A stretch of 64,000 bases of DNA, from positions 2,852,001 through 2,916,000 of the forward strand of contig AP028876.1 in assembly GCA_036323355.1 (NCBI GenBank). The letters run 5' to 3'. This stretch comes from Gottschalkiaceae bacterium SANA (lineage in GTDB: Bacteria > Bacillota > Clostridia > Tissierellales > GPF-1). Position numbers and translations under genes: made by a program. The notes under the pieces were generated by a model. It was not told the DNA's origin. It made no database searches and was given only the letters and a program-made list of their open reading frames with translations. This document shows positions 29,141 to 34,542 of this stretch, piece after piece. Positions within the stretch are counted from its first letter, which is position 1; the number at the start of each line of letters is the position of its first letter.

Positions 29141-31984
29141 ATGAAAAAGCTTTTAACCGTGGGATGTTTATTGTGTAGCATGATTCTCGCGGTAGCCTCA
29201 GCTGCCGCGTTTTCTTTGACTGCCGATCCCTATGCGGAAACCCAATCAACCTCACCCCTGGCAAAAGGAATGCAACTAACTACCATAGAACGATTCAACC
29301 AAAACGGATGGCAAAGAATTCATGTTGTCACCGTTGATTTATCGTCATCAAATCTTTCACCCACCCTACTTACCCCTGATTCTGGTGTTGGGTCCCGTTC
29401 TCGTGTAACAACAATGATGGAGAATACCAATGCCTTAGTCGGTATTAATGGAGACTTTTTTTACAAAAACCTTAATTATTCACCCATTGGCGCCATGATC
29501 AGCAAGGGGACATTGCTGTCGAATAGCATCCCCTTCGACTACCGTACAGCCACTAACAATACAGAGCCGATGATCATCCTTGACACATTCAAAGGTCTTG
29601 CTATTGAAAGCTTGGTGCCCAGCGTTTCAGTAACCATAAACGGAAAAACCTGGCCGCTAGACGGATGGAACAAAGCCTCCAGTGGGTATTGGGGACTTTT
29701 TGCCTACGATCCAAATTGGGGAACCAAATCTATCGGGAATCAGGCTTCCAATCTTGTAGAGATTGTTGTTGTCAACAACAAAGTCAGTGAAATCCGTAGA
29801 GGAAAGCCTGCGACCGATATTCCAAGCAATGGATTTGTTTTGACGCAGCGCTCCGATGCAATTGCGCCTCTTCTAGAAAACCTAGCTGTTGGAAACACAG
29901 TAAGCGTCACCACAAGTCCCTCTCTTAGAAATATAGATATGGCCTTGGGGACCGGCGGTCTACTCGTTGAAAACGGTCAAATCCGCACAAGTTTCTCTGT
30001 TCCCATCAATGGACGTCACCCCAGAACCGCCATGGGACTTTCAAAGGATGGAAACACCCTGACACTTGTTGCCGTTGAAGGGCGCTATGGCGCTTATCGC
30101 GGTATAACGCAAACAGAACTCGCTTCCCTAATGAAAGAACTTGGAGCTTATACGGCAGTCAACCTAGACGGTGGTGGATCCACCACCCTTGCTTATCAAG
30201 CACCCGCCATGGAAATGCCACGCCTTGTCAACCGCCCATCAGACGGGAGCGAAAGAGCTGTCGTTAATGGATTCGGTATTAAAGATAAGAATCCAGCAGG
30301 CTCCTTAACCGCCATAACCATCGAACCAAGTCCGGGTCCTTATCTTCCTGGTGTTCCTATCTCGATAACCTTAAAGGGATTAGACAAGGCCAGTCATCCA
30401 ATGCCGGTGTCCACTTATAAATATGACACATCCGGCGTAACCGTACGGTGGAAAAATGGCGCTGTAATTCCAGACACAAGCGGTTTTTTAACGATTCATG
30501 TGGTAAGCGGTCAAATCGAAGACACCAAAACCATTTGGGTTGATGGACCCATTCAGACCCTAAGCAGTCAGCAAACCAAGATGATTCTAGCACCGAATCA
30601 GACCCTGAATCTGGCCGATTATCTCGCGCCCCTTATCGGGAAAAACAGCGAAGGAACAACGCGTACCCTAGCACCGGAAGATTGGAAACTGACAACGATT
30701 GGTGGAATTGGCAGCCTGAGCGGTACACGATTTACGGCTTCTGCCTTGCCAAGCGCTGGTGGAATTTCCATCGAATATGGAGACGCGCGCCTCACGATTC
30801 CAGTTATCGTTGGTGTTCGTGAGACCCTGGTTCACACGCTAGATGACCTTGCTGTATTCTCAGCGACCCAGCCTTTCTATGTCAAACAATTACCAACTCG
30901 CACCTCAATAACAGATCCAGATAACTATGTCGATGTAAGAGGCGAAATCGCAGAGGGCGTAGACATAAGCACCTCAAGCCTCGCTTTGCAATATGACTTC
31001 GCACATACATCAGAGAATCGCAGCGCAGACCTTCTGATGGGCGATCAAGGCATCAAACTTGGCTATCGTCCAGACGGCATCAGTTTTTGGTGCTATGGAG
31101 ATGGTCAGGGTGCACTTTTAAAAATCAAAGTCAGTGACGGTTACGGTAAAAATTACTATCTGCCGATTACTCGTGTTTCCTTTACAGGCTGGCAAAAAGT
31201 CAGTGTTACTCTACCCGACTTTATTCAGGGTCCCATCACAGTCAAACGGCTCTATCTCTATGAAGACCGACCTGAAATTCGATATTCTGGCATGGTGCGT
31301 TTTGACCAATTGATGAGTTTTCGAGCCTTGAACACAGAACTTCCAGCACTTCCAAAGTCGACACAACTACCCTTGAATATCCCAGCCTTAAGTGCAGATA
31401 TTCCACAGTCAAATCGATTCCTGGTCGCCTGTGGAATCGATGAAACCAATACCTTTCTCAGCCAATTACTCGCTCCAAAATTGGAGGATGCAATGTCAAA
31501 AGGAAAGGTAGGCATTTATTTGACTCCAATGACAAGGGATGTGCATACACCCAAAATTGGATTTTTAGATCCAAAGGACTCAGCTTATGCCTTCCAATAC
31601 GGCGGGGTCCAAATCATTCAACTGGATATTACAGACGGTGGTTTAAGAACCAGCGACAAAAATGGATGGCCCTTGCTGTTGAAGAAACTAGAAGAATCTA
31701 CAGAATCCAATCTGATTATTCTACTTTCCGATTCCCTGTCCGCCTTTACCGATGAAAAAGAGCGTGATGTCTTTTTGGCAGCCATTAATCAGGCCAATCA
31801 ATTCGAACGAAAAATGATTATTATGCCGGGAAAAGAAGCGGAAATCACAAAAGAGTTCGGCATCTATGCCATTACCATTGAGCGGCCAGATCGCCTTTCC
31901 ACAATGGATGCCGCCCAATATGAAATTCTAGAAATACAATTGGGCGATGAATTTGGTCTTGGCTTTACACCACTCTATCAATAA
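29141..31984 (+). CDS. Large secreted phosphodiester-glycosidase (NAGPA) domain protein
   Basis: 947 residues with a signal peptide (LLTVGCLLCSMILAVASAAA). Residues about 40-370 are a NAGPA-type phosphodiester glycosidase domain: VGINGDFFYKN near 106, MALGTGGLLVENGQI near 268 and AVNLDGGGSTTLAYQ near 343. The remaining 570 residues include Ig-like segments, a region resembling a carbohydrate-binding jelly roll near 560-730, and a C-terminal part with alternating strands and helices that resembles a phosphoesterase-like fold (VACGIDETNTFLSQLL onward), though I cannot name it. Probably acts on wall glycopolymers. No SLH or sortase anchor seen. It is followed by a hairpin with a T-tract. Confidence 0.82.
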   Translation: MKKLLTVGCLLCSMILAVASAAAFSLTADPYAETQSTSPLAKGMQLTTIERFNQNGWQRIHVVTVDLSSSNLSPTLLTPDSGVGSRSRVTTMMENTNALVGINGDFFYKNLNYSPIGAMISKGTLLSNSIPFDYRTATNNTEPMIILDTFKGLAIESLVPSVSVTINGKTWPLDGWNKASSGYWGLFAYDPNWGTKSIGNQASNLVEIVVVNNKVSEIRRGKPATDIPSNGFVLTQRSDAIAPLLENLAVGNTVSVTTSPSLRNIDMALGTGGLLVENGQIRTSFSVPINGRHPRTAMGLSKDGNTLTLVAVEGRYGAYRGITQTELASLMKELGAYTAVNLDGGGSTTLAYQAPAMEMPRLVNRPSDGSERAVVNGFGIKDKNPAGSLTAITIEPSPGPYLPGVPISITLKGLDKASHPMPVSTYKYDTSGVTVRWKNGAVIPDTSGFLTIHVVSGQIEDTKTIWVDGPIQTLSSQQTKMILAPNQTLNLADYLAPLIGKNSEGTTRTLAPEDWKLTTIGGIGSLSGTRFTASALPSAGGISIEYGDARLTIPVIVGVRETLVHTLDDLAVFSATQPFYVKQLPTRTSITDPDNYVDVRGEIAEGVDISTSSLALQYDFAHTSENRSADLLMGDQGIKLGYRPDGISFWCYGDGQGALLKIKVSDGYGKNYYLPITRVSFTGWQKVSVTLPDFIQGPITVKRLYLYEDRPEIRYSGMVRFDQLMSFRALNTELPALPKSTQLPLNIPALSADIPQSNRFLVACGIDETNTFLSQLLAPKLEDAMSKGKVGIYLTPMTRDVHTPKIGFLDPKDSAYAFQYGGVQIIQLDITDGGLRTSDKNGWPLLLKKLEESTESNLIILLSDSLSAFTDEKERDVFLAAINQANQFERKMIIMPGKEAEITKEFGIYAITIERPDRLSTMDAAQYEILEIQLGDEFGLGFTPLYQ

Positions 31985-32315: not shown

Positions 32316-32358
32316 GCCTATGTAAATGATCAAACAATCATTTAAGAAAGGATCTGTT

Positions 32359-34542
32359 ATGAAAACCATTCTAATTTTAACTGCCTCTACTGGTGGCGGA
32401 CACAATCAAGCAGCAAATGCGCTTAGAGAAATTTACATAAAAAACGGATATCAGGTTGAAACCTTGGACATTTTTAAAGATAGCAATGAAAAACTCGATA
32501 CAATTATGGTAGAAGGCTATACCTTCCTTGCTACAAAGATGCCAAAAACCTACGGGGATCTTTACTGGCTCTCCAATCAAAAGGTCGTCAACAAGCCCCT
32601 TTGCGACGCCATTGCACGCAGAACATGGCGTTCTCTTTCCCGGAACATTCAACAAATTCATCCCAGCCTAATTTTATCGACACATCCTTTTGCGGTTGAA
32701 ATTGTAGCCAAAATCAAGCGTCATACCCGCCTACAATGTCCTTATCTAGCGGTTGTCACCGATTTCATCGCCCATCAAACCTATTTGAGTCCTGCGGTTG
32801 ATGGATATATAGTCGGCAGCGAATGGACAAAAAAAGATCTTCTTCATAAAGGGATTCAAGCTGATCGAATTCATGCTTTAGGCATTCCAACACGAAGCGA
32901 ATTTTATGAACCCCTCCCTCAACACGACATTGCAGAACCCATCCAGATCCTGGCCATGGCCGGTTCATTGGGCCTTAAGGAAATGGCGGATTGTTTAGAT
33001 GCCATCATGGATAACAAAGCAACAAAGGTAACCGCAGTTTGCGGCAATAATAAGACTCTCTATAAAACCCTGTCCCTGCAATTTCAGGATGAAATACAAT
33101 CCGAACGCTTAACCCTTTATGGGTTTACAAAAAATATACGAAACCTGATGGACACCCATGACTGCATTATGACAAAACCAGGGGGACTAACAACAACGGA
33201 ATCCATCCTTCGACAGATTCCCATGATTATTCCCTTTATGATACCGGGACAAGAAACAGAAAATACAGAATTCCTTGTGGATGAAGGCATGGCAATTCGT
33301 GTAGATTCCGCCAAAGATCTGGCTGAACAAGTGGATCAATTGGCGCGTTATCCACACCGTTTACCACTGATGCGTGCACGTATGAAGGCTGTCGCCGACA
33401 CCTATTCACCCGCAAGTATTTATTCACTCTCTGAATCCTTGATTCAAAGAAAATCAGAGAAAGTCGTCATTTTCAGTGCCGGTTTTGGTGCCGGTCATCA
33501 AATGGTCACCAATGCCATCAGCGAAGAATTTCATTCTCGTTATCAAACTGCATCGATTAAAGAAATTGATTTGATGAATTGGTTGATGCCTCAATTATCA
33601 CAATCCATCTATGACGGTTATCGATATTTTGTGAAGAATTACGAATCCCTTTACAATCGATTCTACGCACAAAAAGAGGATGACGACTCGGCATCGGTCT
33701 TACTTGCCAAGCTTATGCAAAAAAAGACAAGTAAATTGGTGGCGAAGGAAACACCTACCCTCTTGATCTCAACCTTTCCCATCTGCACCCAGGTGCTGGG
33801 GGCATGGAAACAGAAGAGTGGCAGTGAAATTCCTTTGGTCACAGTGATAACGGATGTCACCTCAGCTTCAGAGTGGCTGCATCCCGCCGTCACCCATTAC
33901 ATGGTTGCCAGCGAAAGTGTAGAGCAGGAATTAATTGAAAAAGGCGTCAATAAAGCGAATATTTCTGTAACTGGAATTCCAGTACGCCGTGCATTTCAAC
34001 TACAGCACAAAAGAAAAGTACGTCCCGTTCACAGTCCCCTCCGACTCCTTGTCATGGGAGGGGGCTTCGGACTTCTTCCAGAAGACCAGACCCTGTATCG
34101 CTGGCTGCAAGATGATCCAAGTATCGATGCCACCATTATAACTGGACACAATCATGGGGCCTATCAAACCCTAAAAGACCACTATCCTCGCTTGCGAGTG
34201 AAAGGATTTGTCCACGAGATTGCAGAAGAAATGAAACAAGCCGATCTACTTCTGACAAAACCAGGTGGAATTACACTTTTTGAAGCAATCCATGTGGAGA
34301 TTCCGATTCTCGCATATCGCCCCAGTTTAGGCCAGGAACAAAAAAATGCCCATTTTATTGAAAAAACAGGCATTGGCCAAAGCGTATTTACAACGGGAGA
34401 AATCCTTCGGGCCATTGATTCCTATAAATCAAATCAAACCATCTACCAAGCACGCTCCCAGATGGCCTCGATCCATACAGAACTAAGTGATACGAGCAAA
34501 GAAATCTGGCAACAATTGCTTGAAGAACGTTTCAATGGTTAA
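32359..34542 (+). CDS. Tandem-duplicated MGDG-synthase-type glycosyltransferase
   Basis: 727 residues made of two complete GT28-like glycosyltransferase units (about 1-370 and 372-727). Each has the N-terminal Gly-rich motif (ILTASTGGGHNQAA; IFSAGFGAGHQMVT), a VTD segment (AVVTDFIAH; TVITDVTSA) and the donor-binding motif (MTKPGGLTTTES; LTKPGGITLFEA). Single-unit relatives such as UgtP/YkoN and MGDG synthase transfer sugar to diacylglycerol. Both active sites look intact, so the fusion may add two sugars in succession. First gene of a four-gene operon. ATG 32359 follows AAAGGAT. Confidence 0.88.
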   Translation: MKTILILTASTGGGHNQAANALREIYIKNGYQVETLDIFKDSNEKLDTIMVEGYTFLATKMPKTYGDLYWLSNQKVVNKPLCDAIARRTWRSLSRNIQQIHPSLILSTHPFAVEIVAKIKRHTRLQCPYLAVVTDFIAHQTYLSPAVDGYIVGSEWTKKDLLHKGIQADRIHALGIPTRSEFYEPLPQHDIAEPIQILAMAGSLGLKEMADCLDAIMDNKATKVTAVCGNNKTLYKTLSLQFQDEIQSERLTLYGFTKNIRNLMDTHDCIMTKPGGLTTTESILRQIPMIIPFMIPGQETENTEFLVDEGMAIRVDSAKDLAEQVDQLARYPHRLPLMRARMKAVADTYSPASIYSLSESLIQRKSEKVVIFSAGFGAGHQMVTNAISEEFHSRYQTASIKEIDLMNWLMPQLSQSIYDGYRYFVKNYESLYNRFYAQKEDDDSASVLLAKLMQKKTSKLVAKETPTLLISTFPICTQVLGAWKQKSGSEIPLVTVITDVTSASEWLHPAVTHYMVASESVEQELIEKGVNKANISVTGIPVRRAFQLQHKRKVRPVHSPLRLLVMGGGFGLLPEDQTLYRWLQDDPSIDATIITGHNHGAYQTLKDHYPRLRVKGFVHEIAEEMKQADLLLTKPGGITLFEAIHVEIPILAYRPSLGQEQKNAHFIEKTGIGQSVFTTGEILRAIDSYKSNQTIYQARSQMASIHTELSDTSKEIWQQLLEERFNG

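Follow-up and report, generated by a model that had tools for sequence, protein, structure and literature searches.

A two-unit MGDG-synthase-type protein of a Gottschalkiaceae bacterium as a probable natural UgtA-HexS fusion heading a HexSDF-type operon

Two glycosyltransferase units in one reading frame

The 64,000-nucleotide (nt) stretch of the genome of Gottschalkiaceae bacterium SANA analyzed here (termed the window) contains a gene whose product was predicted to be a head-to-tail fusion of two MGDG-synthase-type glycosyltransferases, which raises the question of what each half does and what lipid the two might build together. The open reading frame (ORF) is open from 32326 to 34542 on the plus strand, and translation from the ATG at 32359 yields a protein of 727 amino acids. 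This ATG, already chosen in the initial annotation, is a better start than 32326, because a ribosome-binding-site-like AAAGGA (32347 to 32352, plus strand) stands 6 nt upstream of it. The protein contains two stretches of MGDG_synth (PF06925; 7.7e-63 for the whole protein, 212 bits versus a Pfam cutoff of 25) and two of Glyco_tran_28_C (PF04101; 40.4 bits versus a cutoff of 22), and with both domains above the Pfam cutoffs it belongs to the MGDG synthase/GT28 family. Half 1 (residues 1 to 363; 32359 to 33447, plus strand) is a UgtA-like unit, judged from Pfam and the tree, with an MGDG_synth and a GT28_C domain and the plus-strand motifs GGGH (residues 12 to 15; 32392 to 32403), KPGG (residues 273 to 276; 33175 to 33186), and PGQETEN (residues 296 to 302; 33244 to 33264). 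Half 2 (residues 364 to 727 plus the stop codon; 33448 to 34542, plus strand), a HexS-like glycosyltransferase unit according to the tree and the models, contains, likewise on the plus strand, GAGH (residues 377 to 380; 33487 to 33498), KPGG (residues 634 to 637; 34258 to 34269), and LGQEQKN (residues 657 to 663; 34327 to 34347). The claim of two complete units in one chain is thus confirmed, with the Pfam domains doubled and the GxGH, KPGG, and GQE..N motifs intact in both halves. The source genome (3.49 Mb, one contig) encodes no second PF06925 protein beyond the fused gene.

Both halves are predicted to adopt GT-B folds that match MGD1 separately (model residues 1 to 365 versus 4wyi, Z of 32.3 and rmsd of 2.6 over 311 residues; model residues 367 to 727 versus 4x1t, Z of 30.3 and rmsd of 2.8 over 296 residues). 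They join with almost no linker: in both models, only a few residues separate the last helix of half 1 (ending at residue 363) from the opening strand of half 2 (starting at residue 368). The two models (pLDDT of 80.1 and 82.8, pTM of 0.56 and 0.55) do not fix the placement of the domains relative to each other.

The same fused frame is found in two sister genomes (G001 and G002), with 77 to 78% identity to the source protein, so that the fusion is present in all three genomes of the genus, which here consists of three genomes. Comparison of the three fused genes (NG86) gave dN/dS ratios of 0.04 to 0.11 wherever dS was unsaturated, with 0.04 (dS of 4.5, near saturation) and 0.10 for half 1, for which the third pair was saturated, and 0.09, 0.09, and 0.11 for half 2. 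Both halves are under purifying selection. The same frame in three genomes and the low dN/dS rule out a pseudogene or an assembly or sequencing error. The initial annotation had named a catalytically dead half as one finding that would speak against it; checked by motifs and dN/dS, neither half shows any sign of this in the genus, the motifs being intact and the ratios low.

Relationships of the halves and the operon around them

The careful tree comprised 77 of 87 rows; six near-duplicates were left out, as were the four second halves of another fused family (f104, see below), because they form a long branch. Half 1 falls within the UgtA clade, a clade of 29 rows with the Clostridioides difficile protein at locus L155 (98/92, 77-row tree). 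The gene for this protein adjoins recR, ybaB, and dnaX, which are typically found close to the replication origin, and on account of these neighbors we took it as cdr20291_0008, which is UgtA. The C. difficile gene at L154, located near a galT-like gene, was taken as UgtB since it encodes the remaining PF06925 protein; both names rest on gene position. At L156, hexS, hexD, and hexF stand in a row. In the best tree, half 2 groups with C. difficile HexS in a clade of 16 rows (97/88), and the HexS- and UgtB-type rows together form one clade of 36 rows (100/100). BLAST scores agree with the placement of both halves: half 1 scored 195 bits with UgtA, 156 with the UgtP ortholog, 119 with HexS, and 117 with the UgtB-like protein, and half 2 scored 219 bits with HexS, 178 with the UgtB-like protein, 156 with the UgtP ortholog, and 124 with UgtA. 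The UgtP model NF010135 reached 413.7 bits over both halves, below its cutoff of 500 (in the genome scan, 216.3 and 201.9 bits for the separate halves). A recent, within-genus doubling of a single unit was rejected (p-AU of 6.5e-5), and the halves, which are 26% identical, are by their sequences old paralogs. An independent tandem duplication was seen elsewhere, in genome G628 (L157:7206-9511), where two adjacent UgtA-type genes are mutual nearest relatives (100/100).

Half 2 and HexS have the loop motif GGGxGxxP in common. Among 87 HexS-type ORFs, counted after leaving out those with less than 900 bases of downstream flank and listed duplicate or off-group loci, the motif occurred in 51 of 54 with an adjoining deacetylase gene and also in 20 of 33 without one, which makes it a poor predictor of HexNAc transfer; as a signature of the donor it is too weak.

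The fused gene is followed on the plus strand by genes for a HexD-like polysaccharide deacetylase (PF01522; 34535 to 35275), a YkoP-domain protein (PF22790; 35247 to 35735), and a HexF-like, flippase-type membrane protein (LPG_synthase_TM, PF03706; 35736 to 36770). The locus thus has the deacetylase and flippase genes of a HexSDF-type operon downstream, with the YkoP gene between them. The ATG at 34535, an uncertain choice of deacetylase start, lies within the 3' end of the fused gene, so that the two genes overlap. The predicted deacetylase has kept the TFDDGP, RPPWG, and LHD stretches and the columns conserved among its relatives, and since it also has a hydrophobic N-terminal stretch, it may act outside the cell after flipping. 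For YkoP and YkoN, the literature searched yielded a paper on Bacillus subtilis sporulation. At three loci (L142:1542-2792, L143 from 6474, and L170:118-1392), a deacetylase and YkoP are joined in one protein of 414 to 424 amino acids, encoded near an MGDG-synthase-type gene; these sequences suggest that YkoP partners the deacetylase. The gene just before the fused one, on the same strand (29141 to 31984), encodes 947 amino acids that include a phosphodiester glycosidase (NAGPA) domain; a NAGPA-domain gene also stands directly upstream in one sister genome (L044), but the sequence read from the other (L043) shows none. Farther away, among minus-strand genes, lies a gene for a diol dehydratase reactivase-type protein (PF08841; 9991 to 11814), whose sequence suggests a diol or glycerol dehydratase cluster.

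Origin of the fusion and a second fused family

To see the unfused state in relatives, we surveyed the best 80 of 209 loci using one profile per half together with profiles for the deacetylase, YkoP, and flippase. The HexS-type gene was followed by deacetylase and flippase genes at 34 of the 80 loci, by the flippase gene at 13, and by the deacetylase gene at 2; it stood alone at 12. A UgtA-type gene preceded the HexS-type gene with deacetylase, YkoP, and flippase genes following at 8 loci, with deacetylase and flippase but without YkoP at 2, with the flippase gene at 1, and with none of these at 1. The UgtA-type and HexS-type units were fused at 2 loci. One locus had a split HexS-type match, then deacetylase and flippase genes, another had a deacetylase gene followed by flippase and HexS-type units in one frame, and no such ORF was called at 3. 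Separate yet adjacent UgtA-type and HexS-type genes were thus present at 12 of the 80 loci, with the deacetylase gene next in 10 of these, and their spacing ranged from −44 to +34 nt. Since the separate genes overlap or abut in this way, fusion within an operon is the likely origin: the sequences indicate that neighboring operon genes were likely joined, rather than a single unit doubled. A further fusion in the same pathway joins a flippase and a HexS-type glycosyltransferase in a 707-amino-acid frame beside a deacetylase gene (L085:4927-7050).

At the order level, the half 2 profile matched 200 of 249 genomes, and among the matches listed, frames of 737 to 739 amino acids occurred only in G000, G001, and G002; one other genome (G009) had a long frame, of 824 amino acids, with only a weak partial match. 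In the class sample, 227 of 391 genomes had a half 1 match at an E value of ≤1e-40, and no other frame above 600 amino acids was present among the matches listed. In the phylum sample, 180 of 398 genomes had PF06925, and the matches listed included frames of 763 amino acids in G384 and 673 amino acids in G306, of which the latter contains a single unit in a long frame and the former is a second two-unit protein. The survey of distribution that the initial annotation had proposed thus places the fusion in all three genomes of the genus and adds the second fused family, f104.

In f104 (L140 and L159 to L162; genomes G384, G439, G463, and G536), a two-unit protein is encoded in all four genomes searched, with matches over 722 to 733 of the 733 query residues. 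Its first half is an intact UgtA-type unit, arranged head to tail with a second half that is HexS-like (114 to 126 bits with the HexS profile versus 43 to 74 with that of UgtA). In all four genomes, this second half is without the GxGH histidine, KPGG, and GQE, and it lies on a long branch in the tree. HexF-type proteins were absent from three of the four genomes, with two weaker matches in G536, and no match at the HexD level was found in any of the four (best E values per genome of 7e-25 to 2e-33, the level of paralogs, versus 5e-106 or better in five operon-bearing genomes). Neither a HexD- nor a HexF-type gene lies in the 11 kb of G384 that were read (L140). The fused lineage that retains HexD and HexF also retains its second active site, a correlation over only two fused lineages, and f104, with its second site decayed, provides a natural control for the role of that site.

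Proposed pathway, alternatives, and comparison with known systems

We consider it probable that the protein is a natural UgtA-HexS fusion heading a HexSDF-type operon that makes an HNHDRG-like lipid. The donors, acceptors, order of action, product, and membrane sidedness are what we infer from sequence. Half 1 would use a UDP-sugar to attach a hexose, probably glucose, to diradylglycerol (DRG), giving monohexosyl-DRG, to which half 2 would add an N-acetylhexosamine; both transfers are ascribed to the fused protein because of its orthology with UgtA and HexS. The HexF-like flippase would move the glycosylated lipid outward, and the HexD-like deacetylase would strip the acetyl group, so that the pathway probably ends in an amino-sugar lipid, aminohexosyl-hexosyl-DRG (HNHDRG-like). 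That the intermediate is handed over between the two sites is a guess. According to the C. difficile studies, UgtA alone gives monohexosyl-DRG (PMC10128005 and PMC11898633), HexS is needed for HNHDRG, and the acetylated intermediate accumulates without HexD (PMC10128005); given only ugtA and hexSDF, a B. subtilis ugtP mutant makes HNHDRG (PMC11898633). HexSD without HexF still yielded HNHDRG in C. difficile (PMC10128005), so the flippase step is uncertain even there. The earlier idea that two diverged, intact sites build a defined disaccharide lipid is the best supported of the readings, through the clades of the two halves, those of enzymes reported to act in series, and the HexD- and HexF-like genes beside them; its product and donors are read from orthology and neighbors, and the HexS placement of half 2 is not statistically exclusive.

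This last point bears on a rather unlikely alternative, in which a UgtA-like half 1 and a UgtB-like half 2 adding a plain hexose would make a dihexosyl lipid, e.g., a lipoteichoic acid anchor, and the deacetylase would have another substrate. Moving half 2, whose branch is long, to the UgtB/tandem clade cost 4.5 log units, and this tree was not rejected (p-AU of 0.128), and its TD....EW stretch is as in the UgtB-like protein, without the H of C. difficile HexS. Nevertheless, both the best tree and the BLAST scores given above favor HexS, the HexD-like gene overlaps the end of half 2, and even the UgtB-like clade has a HexD-like neighbor in 12 of 20 rows.

Since UgtP works processively, a single half could, in principle, catalyze both transfers, and half 1 might carry out all of them while half 2 aids membrane binding, stability, or regulation, perhaps as in f104, whose motif-less second half demonstrates that a noncatalytic second unit can persist. 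The intact half 2 motifs in all three genomes of the genus and the low half 2 dN/dS (0.09 to 0.11) make this very unlikely. It would be even more surprising if the product were a soluble or cell wall glycan instead of a glycolipid; the fold is common to MurG and other GT-B enzymes and a phosphodiester glycosidase domain is encoded upstream, but in sequence and structure the protein best matches MGD1, which is a lipid glycosyltransferase, and a processive diacylglycerol glucosyltransferase, and a lipid-flippase-type gene ends the operon.

With the UgtA-HexS reading preferred, HNHDRG-type lipids, known to date from reports on C. difficile, may have other producers too. If this is true, the two-step amino-sugar lipid model gains support from outside C. 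difficile, the amino-sugar lipid, which matters there for daptomycin and bacitracin resistance (PMC10128005), is predicted in many other Clostridia, a compact operon becomes available for rebuilding the pathway, and YkoP is flagged as an unstudied pathway member. More speculatively, and with considerable doubt, the intermediate might go directly to the second site without ever leaving the protein, in which case nearly all cell glycolipid would be HexNAc-hexosyl or amino-sugar lipid; the lipid might be widespread in Clostridia instead of peculiar to C. difficile; and the fusion might have arisen twice, with one lineage later losing its second site, HexF, and HexD. In the literature searched, with preprints and most subscription journals outside its scope, no report of a UgtA-HexS fusion or of hexSDF outside C. 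difficile was found; no mention of fusions, orthologs, or YkoP was found in PMC10128005, none of fusion or ortholog in PMC11898633, and none of fusion in PMC12713373.

The fused protein is of the same family and fold as the processive diacylglycerol glucosyltransferases UgtP/YpfP; however, those are single units that repeat one transfer, whereas its halves are old paralogs that even together miss the UgtP cutoff. The gpgSDF system of Pseudomonas aeruginosa (PMC12713373) follows an analogous logic of GlcNAc transfer to a lipid, deacetylation, and a predicted flippase, but its lipid is phosphatidylglycerol and its glycosyltransferase is described as family 4. Family f104 has the same succession of a UgtA-clade half and a HexS-like half and differs in the loss of the second-half catalytic motifs in all four genomes. 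With UgtA and HexSDF of C. difficile (PMC10128005 and PMC11898633), the locus has in common a UgtA-clade unit, a HexS-clade unit, a deacetylase, and an MprF-like flippase, with the same supposed order of action; in C. difficile, however, the UgtA-clade gene and hexS are separate and on different contigs (L155 and L156), whereas here the two units are a single polypeptide and the operon also has a YkoP gene.
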